Positions 4,723 to 19,188 of a stretch of DNA of 64,000 nucleotides are shown in pieces. The first letter of the stretch is position 1. Each line of letters starts with the position of its first letter. The translations under genes were made by a program, and so were the position numbers. This DNA is from an uncultured Ruminiclostridium sp. (lineage in GTDB: Bacteria; Bacillota; Clostridia; Oscillospirales; Ruminococcaceae): the NCBI GenBank assembly GCA_944386545.1, contig CALXBK010000005.1, forward strand, positions 1 through 64,000. The letters are read 5' to 3'. Under the pieces are notes generated by a model. It saw only the letters and a list, made by a program, of their open reading frames with translations, did no database searches and had not been told where the DNA came from.

Positions 4723-7700
4723 ATGGACAATAAAAAAACCGAGGTAATACAGCTTAATAAACTGGCGCGGCAGTTAAGGCGGCAGAGTATAACGGTGCTC
4801 GGCTGTTGCAGAAAATACTGCGGAGGGTATCTCCCCTTTCTTAAAAGAAATTCAAAAAGCCTTATATATACCCTTGACAATCCTCATCTGACGGTAAGCT
4901 GTGAGAAAAATGGCGGCAGATATACGCCGGTTACTGCCCAAGCGGCTTTTTGCGACAGCGACGATGAAATGATAACACGCCTTGAAGCGCTGTCAGCAGG
5001 CACGGATTTTTTATACGCCGATATTGAGCTTATATCCGAGCTGTATCTGTGCGAGGTTTTCGGAAGATTATACGATGCGGGGCTTGCGGGAGATGAAGCG
5101 GAGTTTTTAAAGCTGTGCGGAGCATTTTCTTACCCGAAATCCTTTCCCGATGATTTAAACGCGCGCTTTGAGCCTATCACGCGCATTTTTGCGGAAAATG
5201 AAAGCTATGAAAGGCTGTGCGACGCTTCAAAGAGGGACTGCCGCAAAATGGCGGCAATGGTGAGCTGTACCGCAAATATCTCCGCACAGAGATTATGCCT
5301 TGCGTACCTTACCGCATGGGAAAAGGGCAAAGAGCTGTACAAATCCGTAAGAGAGGACTATGACAGGGTTTTTCCCGCGCCGAATGTAAAAAAATACGCC
5401 GCTTTTATAATTCTTGCGGCGCTTTTTATAGCCGTACTTTTGTCGGTGATCTTTAAGAACGCATTTTTCATTTTGCTTGGCTTCCCGCTTTACAGGGCGG
5501 TAAAATTCTATACCGACAGAGCTTTGTGCAAAGCGTATTCAAGGCTGTATATCGCGCCTGCAAGGTATGAGCTTTTCGGAAAAATACCGCCTGAAAGTCC
5601 TACCCTTTGCGTAATTTCGGCACTTCTGACCAGCGAAGCCGATGTAGGCAGGCTTATAAAAAACGCAGAGGAGCTTTTAAATCTCAACCGCACGCAAAAC
5701 CTTGAGGTGTGCCTGCTGTGCGACCTAAAGCAAAGTGTAAGAAAAACCGACAGCGCCGATAAAGCGATAATCAGCGCCTGCCGCGACTATGCCAAAAATC
5801 CCTGCCGTAATATATATATAGTACTGCGAGAACGGCAGTATAACGAAAAGCAGGGCTGTTATATGGGATATGAGCGCAAGCGCGGAGCAATAGAACAGCT
5901 TGCAGGGCATTTTTACGGCAGTACGGCGATAAAGGGCAAGATATACGGCAATTTGACGATTACAATGCCGAGATATTTTCTTGTGCTGGATTATGATACC
6001 AAAACGGGGATAGACGACGCCTCAGCTCTTGTATCCGTTGCAATGGCAAATGAGCCGGTTATCAAGGACGGTAGGGTGCAAAGCGGATACGGCATAATAA
6101 CGCCCTTAATGCTTCCCTCTCTTGATTCTTGCAGGAAAAGCGGCTTTGCGGGGATAATGGGGGGCGAGGGCGGCTCTGACTTTTCCGCCTACGGGAGAAT
6201 GTATGACTTTTACCATTCGGTATTTTCCGAGGGGACGTTCTGCGGCAAGGGACTTATTGACGCAAGGGCGTTTTACGATTGCATTTCTCTGCCCGAAAAC
6301 AGGGTGCTTTCCCACGATATTCTTGAGGGAAATATCCTGCGGTGTACAGCCGCCGATACGGTGTTCTGCGAGAGCTTTCCGAAGGACAGTGCGGCGTACT
6401 TTTCACGGCTTACCCGCTGGCAAAGGGGCGATATACAGAATATCCCCTTTATTTTTTCAAAAAAATTGCCTCAGACGCCGCTCGGTAAATTCAAGCTGTT
6501 TGATTTATGCGTAAATGCGGTATGCCCGATTTTCGTCTTTTTATCCTTGCTTTGCGGCAGTCCGCTTTTAAGCCTGCTTGCGGTAATGCTCACCGTAATG
6601 CCGTTTTTAATCCCGACAGGGCGGCAAAGAAGATTTTTAAGCGGCGGCAGTCTTGCTTCAAAGCGGCTTTCAAGAGCCACGGCGGAGCTTCTGCTCATTC
6701 CCAAATATGCCGCAGACAGCCTTTACGCCTTAACTATAAGCGTTTTTCGCATGATAAGGGGACGGCGGCTTCTCACCTGGGTGACGGCATTTGAAAAGCA
6801 AAAGGGCGAGGGAACAGCAAGAACTGTCAGGGAATTTATTATCCCCTGCCTTCTTTGCCTTGCGGTGATTGCATTAAGCGTACCCGAAAATTTCATTGCC
6901 ATTGTGACGGCGCTGCTGTGTATTTGCGCCCTGCCTGTCTTTATCCTGCTTGACAAGCCTGCCGAAAAAAAGCTAACCGAGCTTACAGACAGGGCAAAGT
7001 CCGAGCTTACAGGCGTTGTAAAAACCGAGCTTGAATTTTTTCTCACCTTTTGCAACGAGGAAAATAACTACCTGCCGCCCGACAACGTACAGCTTTATCC
7101 CGTGTATAAAACGGCGCACCGTACCTCTCCGACAAATATCGGTATGTGCATACTAAGCCTTTACTGCGGGTATATGCTGAAATTGATTTCCTTAAGTGAG
7201 CTTGAAAAGAGGCTCTCCCGTCTGCTTGACAGCTTAGACAGGCTTGAAAAATACGAGGGACATCTTTACAACTGGTATGATACCAGAAATCTTATGCCGC
7301 TTGACGGCTTTGTATCGAGCGTTGACAGCGGAAATTTTCTGTGCTGTATAACTGCGGTCCGGCAGGCATTAAGAGGAATAAGCGACGGTACGGCGTCACG
7401 GCTGTCACAGCTTATCAAAAACGCAGATATGGGGCTGTTCTATGACAGGCGTAAGGGACTGCTCAATATCGGCATAAACGCAAAAAGCGGCAAAAAAACG
7501 CAGAACCTTTACGATATGCTGATGAGCGAGGCGAGAATGGCGAGCTTTTACGCCGTGGCAAGAGGACAGGTGCCGCCCTCTCATTATAAGTCGCTCAGCC
7601 GAGTAACGGGCAGAAACGGCAGATACTGCGGCTGTCTGTCCTGGAGCGGCACGGTGTTTGAATATTTTATGCCCGCACTTCTTATTCCCTCGCTTGACGG

Positions 7701-10700
7701 CGGGCTTGTAAAGGAAAATTTAGATTACTGCGTGCATTGTCAGAAAAGTGCGGCGGCAGGCTTTATGTACGGTATAAGCGAAAGCGGATATTACTCCTTT
7801 GACAGCGGGCTTAACTATCAGTATAAGGCGTTCGGCGCAAGGGGGGCGGCGCTCCGTCCCGATTATCGCTTTGAGCCTGTGTATTCGCCCTATTCCGCAT
7901 TTTTAATGCTGTGCTGTGAGCCGATAGAAAGCTATAACCTGCTGTGCCGTTACAGGCAGGAGGGATATTACGACAGCAGGTACGGCTATTATGAAGCGGT
8001 GGATTTAACCCCCTGCCGCACCGAGAAAAACGGCGCTGTAAAGAGCTTTATGGCTCACCATAAGGGCATGAGCATAGCGGCGGCTTATAATGCCGTCAGC
8101 GGCAATGCTCTCATCGACTGCTTTATGAGCGACGGGGATATGAAAAGAGGTTATATGATGACACAGGAAAGAATAACTGCGGGTGCTCCGCTGTTTAAAA
8201 ACGGTAAAAGCGAGATACCGAGATTAAGCCGTGAGGAGGGTGCGGAATATCCCGACAATGCTCCCCTGCTTTTAAACAACGGCAGAATGACGCTGTGCGC
8301 CATGAAAAGTCCCGACAAAAAAAGCGGGATAGCCGAGCTTTTATGGAATAAGCGCAGGGTGTTCTATCCGTCGGTGTTCGGTCAGCATACGTCGCACAGC
8401 CCCTTTTACGGTTTCAGCGCAAGGCTGTTTGACGGAGAGCTGTGCTATGATATACGAAGCGGCGAATTTATGTCGGGCAAGGCGGCAAAATGGCAGGGAA
8501 AATTTCGAGAGCTTGAAATAAGCGAAACGCTGTCGCTGTGTGATAACCTGCCGACAGCGCAGTTTAAATACCGCATTGTGAACAATTCCTCGGTGCAAAG
8601 AAGCCTGTCGCTTGCAATCTATATGCGTCCCGTGCTGGCTCATGAAAAGGCGGCGACGGCGCACCCTGCATTTTCCGAGCTGTTTTTAAGCTGCAGCAAG
8701 GACGAAAAAAGCGGCGTTATCACCGTAAAGCGCACCGACCGTGAAACCATGGCAAGCACTTGCATGGCGATATATCCCGACAGCGGATATTACGTCAGCT
8801 TTGACCGCGAAACGGTGGATATAACAAAGCCGATTTTCGGGGATAATTTAATGTGCGTGCCTGCGCCCTGCGTTTATATTACCCTGCCGTTTGTATTAAA
8901 GGCGGGAGAAGCGCGGGAGATAACGCTGTCGCTGTGCTGTACCGCAAACGAGCAGGCGGCAATATCCGCAGTGAGGGCAAGACCTCTTAAAAGCAGATAT
9001 GAGTACAGCGCAAGTGCGGCGCATATCCTGGCGTGCCGAATGCTGCCGCACATACTGCTTAAATACAGGAACAAAACGCCGAAAAATACGCCAAAGGGAG
9101 ATTTTTCACAGCTTTACAAATACGGCATGGATACCGCAAGGCAGACGGTTATGTTTTACTGCGAGAGGGCAAGCGACGCACTGTATACGGTTTTAAAGGC
9201 GGCAAGGGAGCTTATCTTTGCGGGCTTTGAGATAAACCTTGTGCTTGTCTGCACCTCGGACAAGGGTAGGTGCGGCGAGATAGAGCAGAACGTCAGCCGT
9301 GTGTTTGCGGAGGGCGGAAATGTTTTCACGCTGTCAGCGTCAGAGCTGTCGCAGGACGAAACGGCTTGCCTTGAGTACCTGTCGGTGTATACCGCAAATG
9401 CAAGCGAGCTTGATGTAAGGGAAAATGCCGCACCGCTGTATCCACTGAAAACGGTAAAGCCCCTGCCTAAGCCCCGGTCAGGCGAAAACGGCTTTACCGC
9501 AGAGGGCTTTGCAATATCCGAAAAGCCGCCCGCGCGCTGGAGTAAGGTGCTTGCCAATCCCGTGTTCGGTATGCTGGCGCATTATGATTCGCTCGGCTTT
9601 TGCTGGGCAGGCAACAGTGCGCTTAATACTCTGAACCCGTGGGATAACGATATAACGGGCAGAAACTGCTCAATGTCCGTTTATTTAAAGGAAAAGGACA
9701 GCTATGTCGATTTGCTTGCCTGCTGTCAGACGCTGTTTTGCCATTCGAGCGTAAGCTATAAGGCGAAAACTGAGCATTGCACATGTACGGTGAGCGCAGC
9801 AGTACCGCAAAGAGGCGCGGCGGCGATAATCCGTGTGACGGTGAAAAACGATACGTCGGCGCGCAGAGAGTTTACGCCCGTGCTTAGCTGTCTTTTAAGC
9901 GGGATAAACGTCACGGAAATGAGCGACGGAGTGCTTTGCTCAAGGCGGCTGTCGCAAAATGAGTTTTCGGGATATTTCTGCCTTGAAGCAGTCGGTAACA
10001 GAGTATTCTACGGCAGTAAAAGCGAGGAGATAAAATCGGGACGCTTTGCGGTAAGCCCTGACGGTGACAGCCTTGCGGGCGGGTGCACCCTGGATATACC
10101 CGCAAAGTCAGAGCAAAGCACGGTGTTTATCCTCTCCTACTGCTCAAGGTACGCCGATAAGGGCGCACTTAGCAGACTGATAAAGGAGAAGAATCCGTTA
10201 CTGCTCAAAGGCGAAAAAATGCGCCGGCTGAAGCTGTCCTGCCCCGACGGCGCTTTATGCGAGCTTTTTAACAACTATCTGCCCGAGCAGATAATAAAGG
10301 GGCGTATATACGCACGGACGGGATTTTATCAGAACGGCGGCGCTTACGGCTTTCGCGACCAGCTCCAGGACGGTATGGCGGCGGCGTATCTTGCCCCTGC
10401 GATACTCGCAAGGCTGATATACAGAGCCTGCGCCTGTCAGTTTGAGCAGGGCGACGTACTGCACTGGCACCACCGAACCGAAAAGGGGCGCATGGGAGTG
10501 AGAACTGCGTGCAGCGACGATATGCTGTGGCTGCCGCTTGCCGCCTGCCGCTATTATGAAATGACGGGCGACAGGGAGCTGTTTAAAAAGGGCGTGCGCT
10601 GCTGTACCGCCCCTCCTTACAACGGCACGGATATATACGGCAAGGTAGGAGAGGGCAAAAAAATAACCGTAGCGGAGCATTGTATGCTTGCGGCAAATTA

Positions 10701-11535
10701 CGCCTACAAGACAGGTCCGCACGGGCTTATTCTCATGGGCGGCGGCGACTGGAACGACAGCTTCAATCTTGTCGGACGGGGCGGCAAGGGAGAGAGCGTA
10801 TGGCTGTCTATGTTTGCAAAGCTCGTGTACGACAGGCTGTGCGCTCTGCCCGATGATGTAATATCCCCTGCCGACAAGGAGCTGTTACGGCACAGGAGCA
10901 GGGCTTTAAAGGAGAATATTAATCTCCGCGCTTACGAAAACGGCTATTATATAAGGGCGTTTTACGACGACGGGGAGAAGCTCGGTGCGGCAGGCGCAAA
11001 AAGCTGTGAAATTGATTTGCTCTCACAGGCGTTTTGCGTGCTTGCGGAAGTAGACAGCGGCGACAGGGCGCGCTCTGCGGTAAATCTGGCGCTGTCCTCG
11101 CTTGTCGATTATAAGGGCGGGCTTATAAAGCTGTTTACTCCGCCCTTTACCGCCGAGGGAGAAAACAAGGTCGGATATGCCGCCGCCTACCCTGCGGGAG
11201 TAAGAGAAAACGGCGGGCAGTACACCCATGCGGCGATATGGCTTTGTATGGCGGTAGAAAGGCTGGGCTGTCCCGATGAAGCGCTAAAGCTCCTCTCTAT
11301 GCTGAACCCCGCCTTAAAGGACAGGGAGATATTCAAAAACGAGCCGTATTATCTCTCCGCCGATGTGTATACCAATCCCGACTGCTACGGCAGAGGCGGC
11401 TGGAGCATATACACCGGTGCGGCAGGCTGGTACTATACCGCAGTGTGCCGTCTTATGGGCTTTGATATAAGGAACGGTAAGCCGCAGTCTGACGGGAACA
11501 GGCTTGACGGTACGATAAAGGTGATAGATGACTGA
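4723..11535 (+). CDS. Cyclic beta-glucan synthase-like GT84/GH94 membrane protein
   Basis: This 2270-aa protein has the NdvB/ChvB/Cgs architecture, whose members make cyclic beta-1,2-glucan from UDP-glucose. Segments: membrane helices near 225-265; a GT84-like transferase at about 290-610 with YMGYERKRG (near 382), DYD at 423-425 (the DxD) and R562-L-T-R-W566 (the RxxRW motif); membrane helices near 595-630 and 705-741; a glycoamylase-like domain at about 790-1115 (NIGMCILSLYCGYM, GHLYNWYDT, MAHHKGMS); and a C-terminal GH94/GH36-type catalytic region with YGFRDQLQD (near 1875), SDDMLWLPL (near 1931) and GGGDWNDSFN (near 2007). It is shorter than alphaproteobacterial Cgs (about 2800 aa). Key residues look intact. 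GGAG precedes the ATG. The product and linkage in this organism are unproven; family members in Firmicutes are often just called GH36-type hydrolases. Confidence 0.88.
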   Translation: MDNKKTEVIQLNKLARQLRRQSITVLGCCRKYCGGYLPFLKRNSKSLIYTLDNPHLTVSCEKNGGRYTPVTAQAAFCDSDDEMITRLEALSAGTDFLYADIELISELYLCEVFGRLYDAGLAGDEAEFLKLCGAFSYPKSFPDDLNARFEPITRIFAENESYERLCDASKRDCRKMAAMVSCTANISAQRLCLAYLTAWEKGKELYKSVREDYDRVFPAPNVKKYAAFIILAALFIAVLLSVIFKNAFFILLGFPLYRAVKFYTDRALCKAYSRLYIAPARYELFGKIPPESPTLCVISALLTSEADVGRLIKNAEELLNLNRTQNLEVCLLCDLKQSVRKTDSADKAIISACRDYAKNPCRNIYIVLRERQYNEKQGCYMGYERKRGAIEQLAGHFYGSTAIKGKIYGNLTITMPRYFLVLDYDTKTGIDDASALVSVAMANEPVIKDGRVQSGYGIITPLMLPSLDSCRKSGFAGIMGGEGGSDFSAYGRMYDFYHSVFSEGTFCGKGLIDARAFYDCISLPENRVLSHDILEGNILRCTAADTVFCESFPKDSAAYFSRLTRWQRGDIQNIPFIFSKKLPQTPLGKFKLFDLCVNAVCPIFVFLSLLCGSPLLSLLAVMLTVMPFLIPTGRQRRFLSGGSLASKRLSRATAELLLIPKYAADSLYALTISVFRMIRGRRLLTWVTAFEKQKGEGTARTVREFIIPCLLCLAVIALSVPENFIAIVTALLCICALPVFILLDKPAEKKLTELTDRAKSELTGVVKTELEFFLTFCNEENNYLPPDNVQLYPVYKTAHRTSPTNIGMCILSLYCGYMLKLISLSELEKRLSRLLDSLDRLEKYEGHLYNWYDTRNLMPLDGFVSSVDSGNFLCCITAVRQALRGISDGTASRLSQLIKNADMGLFYDRRKGLLNIGINAKSGKKTQNLYDMLMSEARMASFYAVARGQVPPSHYKSLSRVTGRNGRYCGCLSWSGTVFEYFMPALLIPSLDGGLVKENLDYCVHCQKSAAAGFMYGISESGYYSFDSGLNYQYKAFGARGAALRPDYRFEPVYSPYSAFLMLCCEPIESYNLLCRYRQEGYYDSRYGYYEAVDLTPCRTEKNGAVKSFMAHHKGMSIAAAYNAVSGNALIDCFMSDGDMKRGYMMTQERITAGAPLFKNGKSEIPRLSREEGAEYPDNAPLLLNNGRMTLCAMKSPDKKSGIAELLWNKRRVFYPSVFGQHTSHSPFYGFSARLFDGELCYDIRSGEFMSGKAAKWQGKFRELEISETLSLCDNLPTAQFKYRIVNNSSVQRSLSLAIYMRPVLAHEKAATAHPAFSELFLSCSKDEKSGVITVKRTDRETMASTCMAIYPDSGYYVSFDRETVDITKPIFGDNLMCVPAPCVYITLPFVLKAGEAREITLSLCCTANEQAAISAVRARPLKSRYEYSASAAHILACRMLPHILLKYRNKTPKNTPKGDFSQLYKYGMDTARQTVMFYCERASDALYTVLKAARELIFAGFEINLVLVCTSDKGRCGEIEQNVSRVFAEGGNVFTLSASELSQDETACLEYLSVYTANASELDVRENAAPLYPLKTVKPLPKPRSGENGFTAEGFAISEKPPARWSKVLANPVFGMLAHYDSLGFCWAGNSALNTLNPWDNDITGRNCSMSVYLKEKDSYVDLLACCQTLFCHSSVSYKAKTEHCTCTVSAAVPQRGAAAIIRVTVKNDTSARREFTPVLSCLLSGINVTEMSDGVLCSRRLSQNEFSGYFCLEAVGNRVFYGSKSEEIKSGRFAVSPDGDSLAGGCTLDIPAKSEQSTVFILSYCSRYADKGALSRLIKEKNPLLLKGEKMRRLKLSCPDGALCELFNNYLPEQIIKGRIYARTGFYQNGGAYGFRDQLQDGMAAAYLAPAILARLIYRACACQFEQGDVLHWHHRTEKGRMGVRTACSDDMLWLPLAACRYYEMTGDRELFKKGVRCCTAPPYNGTDIYGKVGEGKKITVAEHCMLAANYAYKTGPHGLILMGGGDWNDSFNLVGRGGKGESVWLSMFAKLVYDRLCALPDDVISPADKELLRHRSRALKENINLRAYENGYYIRAFYDDGEKLGAAGAKSCEIDLLSQAFCVLAEVDSGDRARSAVNLALSSLVDYKGGLIKLFTPPFTAEGENKVGYAAAYPAGVRENGGQYTHAAIWLCMAVERLGCPDEALKLLSMLNPALKDREIFKNEPYYLSADVYTNPDCYGRGGWSIYTGAAGWYYTAVCRLMGFDIRNGKPQSDGNRLDGTIKVIDD

Positions 11536-13978: not shown

Positions 13979-15265
13979 TCAGGCGATAAACTCCTCAAAG
14001 CCCGTCTTGATAAGCGCCTGCCTTATCTTCTCTGCGGCATCGGGCGAAAGCTCCGTGCTGTCTGTCAGCCTTACTGCGATACTGTCCGTGCCGATTTCCT
14101 TTTTAACAAGTCCCATAACCTGTGAAGCCGCCTGCGCCTTGTCGGAGCTAAGCGTTACCGTTTTGCTCTCGGTCAGGGTAAGCTTTTTGCCTGCAAGGGA
14201 TAAATCCATGTTGATTGTAACCGCACAGTCGGGCATAAGTGAGATGCTTGCGAGTATCTCCGCCGTCTTGTCGTATTCCGTCGCTTCGGCGCATACAAGG
14301 TCGGAGGCATTTATCTCGGCGGATACCCTTACGTCGGGATTTGCCGCCATAGCCTTTTCGGCACACTTTTGTGCAAGCTGTGCCAATTTTTCGCTTCTGC
14401 TTTCGGATTGCAGGGCGCTTTCAACCAGCTTGTAGTCAGAGGCTCTGAATGCGGGGAACATGGTGTTTTGCAGTATAATCTCGTCAAAGCCCGCCTTTGC
14501 AAGCTCTGTGCAGATTGAAGCGAGGTAATTGACAGCGCCCTCGGAATAGGGAGTTACCCACGGCTTGCCGCCCTTGTTTTCATAGTTGTCAAGCCATGTC
14601 CAGCCGCCGTCCTCTGCAAGGTAGCCGTAGCCCTTTTCTAAGTAGGGCGTGAGCTTGTCAAGCAATGTCGAGACACTTGCGGCAGGGGTTATTCCCGCTT
14701 CCTCGCACGCCTTTGCGATAGCATGGGCTGAAAGCGTACCTTTTACTATCTCGGCGTTGTCCTTTACGCTTTTGAGGGAGGATTTGTACAAAAGCTCTCC
14801 CGTTTCGTTCTTTAGGTTGAAAATAACGGTGTTGTAGCCGTCCGCCTTTGCCTGTTCAAGGTATTTTTTAAGAGCGTTTTCGCTGCTGAGAGCCGTATTA
14901 GGTGCGGTAACGGCGCTGAGCTTTTGTCTTTCGGGCTTTGGCTCGGAGGAGTCTTGGGACGAGGTTTCGCTCTCGCTTGTAATGTCGGAGCTGTTTTCGT
15001 CGGTGCTTTCCACCTGTGACTGAGGGGGCGTCCACGCAGGCTCGCTTGAGCTTTGGGCGTCCTGTCCCGAAAAGAATTTTATAAGCGGTGAGGCGATAGA
15101 GTAGCCGAGCAACACAAGCGCGCCTGCAACTATTATAAGAACGACAGCCTCAAATATTTTTCTGCCTGTGCTTTTACGCCTTTTATACAGGTTCTTTCTT
15201 GAACGGTTTACCTTGACGCCGCTTTTTGAGCCGCGTCCCTTTTTCCAAATGGCGTTTCTTCCCAT
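13979..15265 (-). CDS. Membrane-anchored putative glycoside hydrolase (DUF4015-like)
   Basis: Starting at the ATG preceded by GAGGTAGG (15265), this is a 428-aa protein. A very basic N-terminus (1-32) leads into one membrane helix (about 36-60). A Ser/Glu-rich linker with several SSE/TSS runs (about 65-115) follows, then an extracytoplasmic domain (about 120-428). This domain resembles the DUF4015 putative glycosyl hydrolase family: VIFNLKNETGELLYKS, AVNYLASICTELAKAGFDEIILQN and a TIM-barrel-like pattern. I cannot assign a substrate. Its start overlaps no other gene but lies 34 bases after the rnfA stop, on the same strand, so it is probably the last gene of the rnfDEA operon. An in-frame start further upstream at 15313 would overlap rnfA and has no good ribosome site. 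Confidence 0.75.
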   Translation of the reverse strand: MGRNAIWKKGRGSKSGVKVNRSRKNLYKRRKSTGRKIFEAVVLIIVAGALVLLGYSIASPLIKFFSGQDAQSSSEPAWTPPQSQVESTDENSSDITSESETSSQDSSEPKPERQKLSAVTAPNTALSSENALKKYLEQAKADGYNTVIFNLKNETGELLYKSSLKSVKDNAEIVKGTLSAHAIAKACEEAGITPAASVSTLLDKLTPYLEKGYGYLAEDGGWTWLDNYENKGGKPWVTPYSEGAVNYLASICTELAKAGFDEIILQNTMFPAFRASDYKLVESALQSESRSEKLAQLAQKCAEKAMAANPDVRVSAEINASDLVCAEATEYDKTAEILASISLMPDCAVTINMDLSLAGKKLTLTESKTVTLSSDKAQAASQVMGLVKKEIGTDSIAVRLTDSTELSPDAAEKIRQALIKTGFEEFIA

Positions 15266-15299
15266 AAAACCTACCTCTTTGTATCGGATAAACGAAATA

Positions 15300-15899
15300 T
15301 CAGTTGAGCGCATTTGTGGAATAGCCCGTCAGCGCATAGAACGCCAGCGACATTATACCCACAAACACCATCATTATAGGCATACCTCTGAACGCCTCGG
15401 GGATAAGAGGTGAGTTGAGCCGCTCGTTTGCAATGTGCAAAAAGAACAGCGCAACGAAAAAGCCCGCCGATATGCCAAGCCCAAAGCCGATGTATGCAAT
15501 AAAATCCTCATGGTATACGGTGTTTAAGAACAGCGCGCCCAGCACCGTCGCATTGAACACCGACAAATGAACATATTTTTTTATGCTTTTGAATATTTTG
15601 GGCATAAACCGCCATATCGCAAGCAGACTGCCCATGTACACAACGCTTACCACAACCGTGTAGATAAGCGGCATGATGATATAGAAGTACGGCAAATCGG
15701 CAAGCAGATTGTCTATAAAGAAGGTAATACAGCTTGATACGGTTATTACATAGGTTATGCCGAGTCCCATTCCGATTATGCTTTCCTTTTTACGGGAAGC
15801 GTAAAAGGCTACGCTTGTACCCAGCGCACGGGAAAAAATCGCATTTTCGACAAACATTGCGAAAAGAGCGGTATTTATAAATAATGCAAGCTTGTCCAC
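15300..15899 (-). CDS. rnfA: RnfA-like membrane protein lacking both cluster cysteines
   Basis: This 199-aa, six-helix protein aligns without gaps to RnfA/RsxA in the diagnostic regions: ENAIFSRALG, GMGLG, FRGMPIMMVFVG and SLAF. In RnfA and NqrE one [2Fe-2S] ligand is Cys in LGxCPF; here the position is Ser29 (RALGTSVAF). The second ligand, Cys in NCAVLG, is Ala117 (FNATVLG). So the fold is retained but the iron-sulfur site is not. The start is GTG at 15899 with AGGTGAGG upstream, 3 bases after the rnfE stop. It forms an operon with rnfD and rnfE. Automatic annotation will call it electron transport complex subunit A, but electron transfer through the usual cluster seems impossible. Confidence 0.85.
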   Translation of the reverse strand: MDKLALFINTALFAMFVENAIFSRALGTSVAFYASRKKESIIGMGLGITYVITVSSCITFFIDNLLADLPYFYIIMPLIYTVVVSVVYMGSLLAIWRFMPKIFKSIKKYVHLSVFNATVLGALFLNTVYHEDFIAYIGFGLGISAGFFVALFFLHIANERLNSPLIPEAFRGMPIMMVFVGIMSLAFYALTGYSTNALN

Positions 15900-15902
15900 G
15901 GT

Positions 15903-16595
15903 TTACCTCACCTTTTCCGCCGCCTGTTTGCGCGCGGCTTCTTCGTTCATGCGTATTCTGCGGTTACGCAGATAGTTGTAAAGGGCTCTGAAAAGTCCCG
16001 ACATCACGCCGACCATTATAAATCCGCCGAACGGCGCTTCAAATGCGGCAACGCTTATATCAAGCAGCTTAATTCCGCCTATCGAGCCAAAGCAGATAAG
16101 CTCTCTTGCCGCACCGGTAAGGATACAGATAACCGAGAAGCCTATTATAAAGAAGCTGACGTCTATTATCATTTTCAGCCTGTTTTCAAGATAAAATCGG
16201 CTTTCCGTTTTTGAGAATATCAGCGCGTTTGTAATAATAAGCGGCATATAAATACCGATAAGCTCGACGGTAAGCGGGAATATTTCTTCAAGCAGTATTA
16301 CCGTCGGGATATAGTAAACCGAGCCTACAAGAACATAAATAATTACTCTGAGCGTATAAACAATTCTCTTTGAAACAAAGGAGCAGGTAAAGATAGTGAA
16401 GAATGAGATAAGCGCAAAGGCAATCGCTATAACCACGCCCTTTTTGAAGGTGGTAGCGGCGATAATCACGGGGGCGTTTACAATGCCCGTCATCAGCACG
16501 ACGTTCTGCTTTGCAAGACCGTCCAGCAAATCTCTTGTAAATTTGAAAGGATTACTCCGTGTCTTTTTCGGTTTTATCTGTTTTGAGCGAGCCAT
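15903..16595 (-). CDS. rnfE: RnfE-like membrane protein lacking both cluster cysteines
   Basis: This 230-aa, six-helix protein is homologous to RnfE/RsxE/NqrD, as shown by GLAKQNVVL and GIYMPLIITN. The two Cys residues that complete the intramembrane [2Fe-2S] site are replaced: Cys in GLCP is Ala41 (VNAP), and Cys in TNCI is Ala124 (TNAL). The N-terminus (1-18) is very basic, and the C-terminus is a charged tail rich in Arg and Glu. The start ATG at 16595 overlaps the rnfD end by 44 bases but has a perfect GGAGG about 7 bases upstream, so I accept the overlap. It is translated between rnfD and rnfA. Confidence 0.85.
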   Translation of the reverse strand: MARSKQIKPKKTRSNPFKFTRDLLDGLAKQNVVLMTGIVNAPVIIAATTFKKGVVIAIAFALISFFTIFTCSFVSKRIVYTLRVIIYVLVGSVYYIPTVILLEEIFPLTVELIGIYMPLIITNALIFSKTESRFYLENRLKMIIDVSFFIIGFSVICILTGAARELICFGSIGGIKLLDISVAAFEAPFGGFIMVGVMSGLFRALYNYLRNRRIRMNEEAARKQAAEKVR

Positions 16596-17868
16596 CAGAG
16601 TCCTCCTTTTCCGTGTTTGCCTTTTCAGTCTGACGTTCTTTTTCTTTTTGCTTCTTTTTGGCGTTGTCCGACTGCTTTTCCTTTATTTTTTCCAGAACCG
16701 ACTTTTTTCTGCGTTTTACCTTTGTAATCTTGTTGTCAATGGGGGGCATATTATAGGTGACAGGCTCAAGCAGCAGCTCCTGCGTGTCCTCAAGCTTAGG
16801 CATTTCGCCCTGCTTTGCCTGTGCGGAGAGCTTTTCATACGAGCCGAGGTTGTTTTTAAGATATGACGCCGCCTGCTTTACCTTTTTCTTTATATCGAAC
16901 GCCAGCTTGTCAAGGTACAGCGACAGCGCGTTTACCACAAGCAAGGCAAAGACGAATACGCCCTCTATCTGTGCGGTGTTTCTGAAAATAACCGCAATCA
17001 CGCCGAGAAAAATTCCGTACAGTATGCGTCCGCCGTTGGTGTAAGGGAGCGTCTGCGGATCGTTTGCAAGGAAGATAAAGCCGAACAGCATAAAGCCCGA
17101 TATAAATTGAAACACTACCGCTTCCCATGTAGGCTCGACGCTTGTAGTGAGATAGGTAAGCAGTGCGGTTACGGTAATCGCGCCGAGCGTTGCCGAAAGC
17201 GATACGCTTCTGCGAAGTACAAGGCAGATACCGCTGACAACCAGGACTAAAATGTGCGTTGTGCCCATAGGTCCCGCAAAGCTGCCCATAAGTATTTCAA
17301 GCGGGGACAGCGACGGCATTGCGCCGTTTTTGATAAAGCTGCTCTCTATACTGCTGACAAGCCCCTGAGCCTGCCCGAAAATTTCAAGCTGTGTGCCGGG
17401 CACGGGATAGGACAGCACCTGCGTCGGATAGCATATTATAAGAAACGCAACGGCTACCGCCGTCGGGTTGAAAATGTAGTTATCCTTGCCGCCGAAGATG
17501 TGCTTTACCGTGACTGCAAGCACAGCGCCGATTGCGACGATATAATATTCAACGCTTGCAGGGAGCATTAGTGCGAGCGCAAGGCCGTAAGCGATTGTGG
17601 ATAAATCCTTTACGCCGTACTCCTTTTTGGAAAGGAAACAGCCTATCATATCCGTTATGATACAGCACAGCACCGAAAAGGCGCATACTATGACAGGTCT
17701 TAAGCCGTAGCTTGTAAATGCCATTACAAGTACGGCGAGCATGAACAAAATCTGATCGCCGTAAATGCTGCGGGGCTTGCGCAGCTTCTTTTTGGCCGCT
17801 TCCTTGCTCATCAGCAACGGAGCGTCTTCTATTTTTTTAAGCAATTCCTGCGTTGAAGGGTTACTCAT
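16552..17868 (-). CDS. rnfD: RnfD-like membrane protein without the FMN threonine and with a long charged tail
   Basis: This 438-aa protein has an RnfD/NqrB-type membrane core (about 35-323): STIAYGLALALMLPAS, FNPTAVAVAFLI, FLANDPQTLPYTNGGR. RnfD normally carries FMN covalently on the Thr of a D-x-x-S-G/x-A-T motif. The aligned segment here (VSSIESSFIKNGAMPSLS, 171-188) has Glu175 at that position and no SAT motif; the only SAT is at 225-227 inside a predicted helix. Residues about 325-438 form a Lys/Glu-rich cytoplasmic tail that standard RnfD lacks. AAAGGAACAG lies before the ATG. It is the first gene of rnfD-rnfE-rnfA-glycoside hydrolase, with no rnfC, rnfG or rnfB nearby. Confidence 0.85.
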   Translation of the reverse strand: MSNPSTQELLKKIEDAPLLMSKEAAKKKLRKPRSIYGDQILFMLAVLVMAFTSYGLRPVIVCAFSVLCCIITDMIGCFLSKKEYGVKDLSTIAYGLALALMLPASVEYYIVAIGAVLAVTVKHIFGGKDNYIFNPTAVAVAFLIICYPTQVLSYPVPGTQLEIFGQAQGLVSSIESSFIKNGAMPSLSPLEILMGSFAGPMGTTHILVLVVSGICLVLRRSVSLSATLGAITVTALLTYLTTSVEPTWEAVVFQFISGFMLFGFIFLANDPQTLPYTNGGRILYGIFLGVIAVIFRNTAQIEGVFVFALLVVNALSLYLDKLAFDIKKKVKQAASYLKNNLGSYEKLSAQAKQGEMPKLEDTQELLLEPVTYNMPPIDNKITKVKRRKKSVLEKIKEKQSDNAKKKQKEKERQTEKANTEKEDSDGSLKTDKTEKDTE

Positions 17869-17991: not shown

Positions 17992-18540
17992 ATGAATATA
18001 GATATGCTTGCGGCAAATACCGTAAAGATAACCATGGACAGCGAGGAAATGTCGGCATACAACATAAGCTGTGACGACATCTCAAAAAATACCCGTGAGT
18101 CAAAGCTGGCTCTTTCCCGCTTTATAAGCGAAATAAAGGAGGAAAACAAGCTTGTCTTGCCCTTTGACAGAATGCTGATTGAGGCGTTTCCCCGAAAAAA
18201 CGGAGGCTGTGTGCTGTATCTGTCCTGCCTTAAAAGGGCGGTAAAAAATGGGGAAAAGCAGTTTTTCTTCCGTTCGGAGAGCCTCAGCGATATTGCAAGG
18301 CTTTGCCGCGCCCTATCGGGCTTTGAGGGAGTGCGGGCAAGCCTTTATCTGAACGCCTGCAACGAGGAGTGTGCGTACCGTCTTGCGGTAGCCTGCGACA
18401 GCGATAATCCCCGCATAAAGCAGATTGCCTCGGAGTTTGCCGTATTTGAGGGAAGCTCGGATATTCTCCTGCCCGATACCGAGGAGTATTACAGCCTTAT
18501 CTGTCCCGACGCGCTTCACTTTCTGCCCAAGGTGTTTTGA
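17992..18540 (+). CDS. MecA-family adaptor protein
   Basis: MecA adaptors deliver substrates such as ComK to the ClpC ATPase for degradation by ClpCP. This 182-aa protein has the typical N-terminus (MNIDMLAANTVKITMDSEEM). The middle is short, and a C-terminal domain (about 80-180) has an FRSESLSDIARLCRAL segment like the MecA C-domain. It is somewhat shorter than Bacillus MecA (about 218 aa). GGAGG lies about 8 bases before the ATG. It is divergent from rnfD and convergent with rpe, its stop codon directly abutting the rpe stop. Targets here are unknown. Confidence 0.78.
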   Translation: MNIDMLAANTVKITMDSEEMSAYNISCDDISKNTRESKLALSRFISEIKEENKLVLPFDRMLIEAFPRKNGGCVLYLSCLKRAVKNGEKQFFFRSESLSDIARLCRALSGFEGVRASLYLNACNEECAYRLAVACDSDNPRIKQIASEFAVFEGSSDILLPDTEEYYSLICPDALHFLPKVF

Positions 18541-19188
18541 TTAAAGGCGTAAAAGCTCTGCGGCGGCGTTCATATCCCCGGAACGGAAAAGATACGTTCC
18601 TGCGACAAGCACGTTTGCGCCGGCTGTTTTTGCGACCGGGGCGGTTTTATTGTCAATACCGCCGTCAACCTGAATGTCGAGGTTAAAGCCGTTTTCGTTG
18701 CAGAAGCTTCTCAGCGCCTTTACCTTTTCGGCGCACTGCGGGATAAAGCCCTGTCCGCCGTAGCCCGGATCAACCGTCATCACAAGCACCATATCGCAAA
18801 GCGGCAGATACGGTATACATTCCTCCCACGGGGTGGCGGGCTTTATCGCAAGTCCGCTTTTCATGCCCTGCCGCCTGATTTCGGCAAGGTTTGCGGCGGT
18901 GTTGCCCTCGCTTTCAAGGTGAATTGTCAGCATATCGCTGCCCGCCCCTGCAAACAGGGGGATAAGCCGCGTGGGATCGTGCACCATCAGGTGGGTGTCG
19001 AAAAACAGCCTTGTTATCGGCCGCATTGCCGCAACGACATTGTTGCCGTATGTTATATTATCTACGAAAACGCCGTCCATAACATCAATATGAAGCCAAT
19101 CGACGCCGCTTTTTTCTGTTTTTTTAATCTCGTCTGCAATGCGTGTAAGGTCACTCGCAAGCATTGAAGCGGAAATGACAGTTTTCAT
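18541..19188 (-). CDS. rpe: Ribulose-phosphate 3-epimerase
   Basis: Interconverts ribulose 5-phosphate and xylulose 5-phosphate in the pentose phosphate pathway. The 215-aa TIM barrel shows SASMLASDL, HIDVMDGVFVDNITYG, HLMVHDP, MTVDPGYGGQGF and the phosphate-binding IQVDGGID segment. The metal-ligand and active-site Asp/His residues are in place. An AAGGAGAG ribosome site precedes the ATG. There is no intergenic DNA between this gene and the convergent mecA-like gene, so neither has room for a normal terminator. Confidence 0.96.
   Translation of the reverse strand: MKTVISASMLASDLTRIADEIKKTEKSGVDWLHIDVMDGVFVDNITYGNNVVAAMRPITRLFFDTHLMVHDPTRLIPLFAGAGSDMLTIHLESEGNTAANLAEIRRQGMKSGLAIKPATPWEECIPYLPLCDMVLVMTVDPGYGGQGFIPQCAEKVKALRSFCNENGFNLDIQVDGGIDNKTAPVAKTAGANVLVAGTYLFRSGDMNAAAELLRL

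Follow-up and report, generated by a model that had tools for sequence, protein, structure and literature searches.

The window, by which we mean the whole stretch of 64,000 nucleotides that was analysed, comprises three adjacent genes resembling rnfD, rnfE and rnfA of the Rnf complex (Table 1), hereafter referred to as the triad or, individually, as D, E and A. In the ORF survey, all three exhibit open frames and plausible ribosome sites, as had been predicted; E and A are separated by 3 nt, and, with the starts as listed, D and E overlap by 44 nt. The Pfam matches, PF03116 for D and PF02508 for both A and E, are all well above the cutoffs, and the homology to Rnf subunits is also seen with profiles of solved Rnf/Nqr chains from the PDB, which match A, E and D. 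In contrast to the canonical rnfA, rnfE and rnfD of the same genome, which pass the NCBIfam cutoffs with 257, 242 and 303 bits, the triad misses these cutoffs by far (87 of 229, 43 of 213 and 126 of 207 bits for A, E and D, respectively). A survey of ORFs and Pfam domains at the locus revealed no rnfB, rnfC or rnfG near the triad, in agreement with the original prediction, and the only RnfG-type FMN_bind protein of the host genome (1.99 Mb, 99.6% complete) is encoded within a canonical rnfCDGEAB operon. This operon, whose possible presence the original prediction had raised, lies on another contig and has all four cluster cysteines.

Table 1. Features of the triad locus and its surroundings, in window coordinates.
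Feature	Position	Strand	Remarks
Gene for 2270-aa protein	4723-11535	+	GH94 catalytic and supersandwich domains; weak glucoamylase-like stretch
DUF4015 (putative glycosyl hydrolase domain) protein gene	13979-15313 (likely start 15265)	-	one N-terminal hydrophobic segment
RnfA-like gene (A)	15300-15899	-	GTG start; PF02508 match; open frame
A, Ala117	15549-15551	-	replaces cluster Cys; N116 kept
A, Ser29	15813-15815	-	replaces cluster Cys
RnfE-like gene (E)	15903-16595	-	PF02508 match; open frame
E, E131	16203-16205	-	ion pair with R83 kept
E, Ala124	16224-16226	-	replaces cluster Cys
E, R83	16347-16349	-	ion pair with E131 kept
E, Ala41	16473-16475	-	replaces cluster Cys
RnfD-like gene (D)	16552-17868	-	PF03116 match; open frame
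D, cytosolic tail motif	16735-16785	-	conserved; T362-D378, TQE...YNMPPID
D, D270	17059-17061	-	riboflavin ligand kept
D, Glu175	17344-17346	-	flavinylated Thr absent
D, N134	17467-17469	-	riboflavin ligand kept
mecA-like gene	17992-18540	+	divergent; many relatives have it between rpe and D
rpe, ribulose-phosphate 3-epimerase gene	18541-19188	-	conserved upstream neighbour of triad

The DUF4015 domain has been reported fused to a YkyA domain, which is also found fused to polysaccharide deacetylases. Of the MecA profile, only the N-terminal third is matched by the mecA-like gene. The 2270-aa GH94 protein encoded elsewhere in the window is presumably of the cyclic-glucan/phosphorylase type.

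With regard to the [2Fe-2S] cluster, alignments to the canonical RnfA, RnfE and RnfD of the same genome and order place Ser29 and Ala117 of A and Ala41 and Ala124 of E at the four cysteine positions, which are the replacements originally predicted. Profile matches to solved Rnf/Nqr chains gave the same columns; as these alignments agree with the genome's own canonical copy, a misalignment of the cysteine columns is ruled out. Across the main residue alignment (60 redox-poor sequences and 14-15 canonical ones), none of the 60 exhibits a cysteine at the position of RnfA Cys25 or at either RnfE position (25 and 108). The position of RnfA Cys113 is occupied by alanine in all 12 members of the window's subclade and is still a cysteine in 21 of 22 other congeners and in 13 of 20 other loci of the window's family, f1 (f1 and f24 are the codes given by the tool to GTDB-like families, not names, and the data are mostly MAGs). 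A second alignment covered 30 f24 loci, 27 of them with an aligned A and two also among the 60. By hand tally, RnfE Cys108 is lost in 30 of 30 and RnfA Cys25 in 27 of 27 of these, with RnfE Cys25 remaining in 18 of 30 and RnfA Cys113 in 3 of 27. RnfA Cys25 and RnfE Cys108 are thus missing from all members examined. Any member seen retains at most two of the four ligands, and at least one f24 locus has two cysteines left. The four predicted losses hold for the window; nevertheless, they do not form one joint stable set, as RnfE Cys25 and RnfA Cys113 vary by lineage.

The linker of the window's D lacks the S-x-[AS]-T flavinylation motif, and the alignment exhibits no threonine near the site, as predicted, although the exact column of the lost threonine is ambiguous (Glu175 or Ile174). 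The canonical RnfD of the same genome carries a TSST site. The claim that every known redox site is lost must, however, be narrowed: the four cysteines and the threonine are gone, but the residues corresponding to the riboflavin ligands N123 and D249 of A. woodii RnfD (PMC11889175) are kept as N134 and D270, both invariant across the genus. They are also kept in all six aligned loci that carry a truncated RnfC-like gene (C', described below), and of 20 other f1 loci, 13 have His, Cys or Ser instead of the asparagine. Judging from these residues, a flavin site on the cytosolic side of D may persist although the trans-membrane electron path is gone.

The structural model of D can be superposed on RnfD chains, with a TM-score (by target) of 0.80 for 9eri_D. 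Foldseek also matched it weakly to UT and Amt/Rh channels (TM ~0.3), to which it bears no sequence relation; that canonical RnfD resembles urea and ammonium channels had been described before (PMC9588780). D further exhibits a cytosolic extension with the motif TQE...YNMPPIDNK, shared by this genus and, in part, by one sister genus, in which motif T362, E364, M374, P375 and D378 are invariant (25 sequences); no further copies of this tail were found in the genome. As RnfC is held by the D termini in canonical Rnf (PMC9588780), the tail may, by analogy, have replaced the RnfC contact with a contact to another partner. That its invariant Thr-x-Glu could be a phospho-Thr docking site is a guess only. 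The genome has a single FHA-domain match, at G000:C17:35108-35308.

Other residues were compared using the roles reported for A. woodii Rnf. In the window's proteins and those of its congeners, the RnfE R67-E115 pair is kept as R83 and E131, the buried asparagine of both broken helices is kept (RnfA N116 and RnfE N123), the RnfA L108 gate is kept as L112, and RnfA Tyr105 is kept as Y109, with a phenylalanine in three congeners. K32 is changed to arginine, RnfA E88, T110 and T111 are lost, and so are R154 and E158, which face RnfB. As read from these sequences, the overall pattern is one of lost redox partners and ligands and a retained gating frame. Lineages carrying C' do not conserve the ion pair, so the window's genus offers the strongest case for the transporter argument set out below. 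The AlphaFold model of A is of moderate confidence only, and no claim about a pocket is built on it.

The order rpe-(mecA)-D-E-A-DUF4015 is observed, within the limits of the contigs, in 33 congeneric loci, where yajC often lies further out, and in 23 loci from other f1 genera, three of which have an extra rnfC-like gene before D. The DUF4015 gene adjoins A in all f1 loci examined. In f24 the order is mostly rpe-C'-D-E-A, and a DUF4015-like sequence follows A in several loci despite short flanks. A chance DEA fragment near envelope genes is ruled out by this synteny across two families. C' retains two [4Fe-4S] motifs and a degraded Complex1_51K (NADH/FMN) domain, which is matched with E-values of 6e-7 to 3.5e-4 as opposed to 9.5e-46 in canonical RnfC. 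Truncated RnfC-like genes head the redox-poor operon at L184:10224-11279, L188:4906-6171, L189:10210-11337 and L231:9936-11162. Five f24 loci (L251, L253, L254, L262 and L263) exhibit RnfE-like frames of about 390-500 aa, twice the normal length, which possibly reflect fusion partners or wrong start calls. The named relatives in the public collection are MAGs mostly labelled Ruminiclostridium or Oscillospiraceae, many of them from animal guts. In a wider sampling of the class (two samples of 391 genomes, of which the top-scoring loci were inspected, such that very divergent members might escape), no redox-poor triad was found outside f1 and f24, all inspected top matches being complete rnf operons. 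A second rnf operon with G and B and with partial ligand changes was seen in family f19 (genome G053, L233:6387-11850), where RnfE Cys108 is replaced by glycine and the first RnfA cysteine is shifted by one; it is apparently a separate case.

In a joint tree of A and E, the redox-poor A sequences form one clade (SH-aLRT 100) and the redox-poor E sequences another (99), each siding with its canonical orthologue and with a similar inner order for A and E, although the search was quick, some branches are long and the inner details are unsure. The triad is a paralogue of the Rnf core that has been stably inherited and is intact in dozens of genera. Because the A and E clades mirror each other, its origin is best explained by a duplication of the whole rnf operon, after which rnfG and rnfB were lost, as was rnfC in the window's lineage. 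In two other families, canonical rnfB was seen to be followed immediately by a DUF4015 gene (L071:5495-6433 and L075:9671-11116). The data suggest that DUF4015 was already a neighbour of the rnf operon; most parsimoniously, an operon of the order C-D-G-E-A-B-DUF4015 was ancestral, from which first G and B disappeared, and then C' in the window's line.

Pairwise dN/dS values of A, E and D range from 0.02 to 0.16, with similar values for rpe. These values and open frames in dozens of species rule out decay into pseudogenes. The prediction of a stable derived family rather than decay is borne out by the single A and E clades, the conserved DEA synteny, the purifying selection and the canonical operon elsewhere in the genome. 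Across 54 loci, tree distances of A correlate with those of E at 0.93, of D at 0.84 and of DUF4015 at 0.81 (0.89, 0.78 and 0.73, respectively, after removing rpe, which serves as a single-gene proxy for species distance), compared with 0.54 for A and rpe. As these correlations go beyond rpe, they support, without proving, that A, E and D form a complex and work with DUF4015. The predicted link to neighbouring envelope proteins likewise stands, DUF4015 being conserved next to A and co-evolving with it. Most genomes carry both the canonical and the redox-poor operon. One congener, G033 (96% complete), has the redox-poor pair and no canonical Rnf-Nqr pair, an assembly gap being possible; since it has the redox-poor pair alone, the triad does not seem to need canonical Rnf. 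Purifying selection thus acts on the triad beside canonical Rnf and, in one genome, apparently without it.

Compared with Rnf (RnfCDGEAB; Rsx in E. coli), the triad shares homologous A, E and D subunits, the gene order D-E-A, the D fold and, in this genus, the riboflavin ligands and the R67-E115 pair of RnfE. It differs by the absence of the [2Fe-2S] ligands, of the FMN site of D, and of RnfB, RnfG and RnfC at the locus. Na+-NQR (NqrABCDEF) is also thought to derive from a duplicated rnf operon, and its NqrA lost its cofactors (PMC4014512; PMC11889175). It is the closest precedent, as a proposed rnf-operon duplicate in which one subunit lost its cofactors, although NQR kept the cluster and the covalent flavins and stayed an oxidoreductase. 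Membership of Na+-NQR is ruled out, as genes of the nqrA or nqrF type were likewise absent from the surveyed ORFs and Pfam domains of the locus. In NQR/RNF-like flavinylation systems, an NqrB/RnfD homologue is used outside the full complex, with a fused NAD-binding domain and FMN-binding partners (PMC8238504). In contrast, the window's D consists of PF03116 alone, and the missing PF00175 domain and the lack of a nearby FMN_bind protein rule out membership of these systems too. No description of Rnf/Nqr membrane subunits devoid of the cluster cysteines was found in the open literature searched.

From known Rnf biochemistry it follows that the electron circuit of Rnf cannot operate in the triad: it has neither the intramembrane [2Fe-2S] ligands nor the site at which FMN is attached to RnfD, and the shuttle subunits RnfB and RnfG are absent. 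The term redox-dead used in the original prediction therefore fits the trans-membrane path, but neither the surviving riboflavin ligands of D nor the RnfC remnant with its two [4Fe-4S] motifs in sister lineages. With a probability of roughly 0.5, we consider the triad to be an Rnf-derived transporter, no longer driven by electrons, which would serve transport or envelope energisation together with DUF4015. A and E would have kept the arrangement of an inverted dimer with broken helices and act as a membrane transporter, whose alternating access would use the small residues where the cluster once sat, the buried asparagine pair and the Arg83-Glu131 pair. D could be a partner channel or a flavin-binding anchor, and its tail a cytosolic docking or regulatory element in place of the RnfC contact. 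The complex would serve the extracytoplasmic, glycan-acting DUF4015 protein encoded just downstream: it would carry an ion or small solute through the membrane, or else hold DUF4015 in place or energise it. The retention of the ion-pair, gate and buried-asparagine residues alongside the loss of the RnfB-docking residues argues for this transporter. Against it count the kept riboflavin ligands, which leave room for some redox role of D, the persistence of one RnfA cysteine in many relatives and of two cysteines in at least one f24 locus, the ion pair not being conserved where C' is present, and the only moderately confident A model. The Na+ path is itself disputed in Rnf and NQR, between the A/E dimer (PMC11889175) and D/NqrB (PMC9588780, PMC12174285). 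A derived family linked to an envelope protein thus stands from the original proposal of reuse, whereas the role, be it transport, ion permeation or scaffolding, stays conjectural.

The explanation that ranks next is a scaffold or regulator without transport of its own, in which the Rnf fold would position DUF4015 outside and a cytosolic partner inside via the D tail. The neighbourhood and co-evolution of DUF4015 and the five invariant tail residues favour it, but the broken-helix, gate and ion-pair residues are conserved in the genus beyond the needs of a passive platform, and we regard it as rather unlikely. Somewhat more doubtful is a cytosol-facing redox sensor or partial chain, in which riboflavin-bound D would exchange electrons with the [4Fe-4S] clusters of C', where C' is present, and regulate A/E with no electrons crossing the membrane. 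Such a role would account for the riboflavin ligands being invariant in the genus and kept in the C'-bearing loci, and for the two motifs of C'; however, the window's lineage has no C' at the locus, and most of the other f1 loci have replaced the riboflavin-ligand asparagine. The co-occurrence of both operons in most genomes would also be expected of an accessory module of canonical Rnf or of a decaying duplicate. This is very improbable, as G033 has the triad without a canonical pair, the RnfB-docking residues are lost, and the low dN/dS and intact frames argue strongly against decay.

Returning to the transporter, the triad could even be the first complex of the Rnf/Nqr superfamily that is not an oxidoreductase, i.e. 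an alternating-access A/E/D transporter for envelope glycan work with DUF4015 in two families of gut Clostridia; we put this broader claim forward tentatively, as slightly short of an even chance. As a natural and widespread paralogue that has lost the electron path yet retains the ion-pair residues of A/E and the fold of D, the triad amounts to a separation-of-function experiment made by evolution. The staged loss of carriers within the membrane core itself, with C'DEA and then DEA as intermediates, offers a case of a redox pump becoming something else. It is also a warning for annotation: the triad genes pass the Pfam Rnf-Nqr cutoffs, and counting them as an energy-conserving Rnf complex would lead to misleading metabolic reconstructions; G033, which seems to possess the redox-poor form only, is an example.
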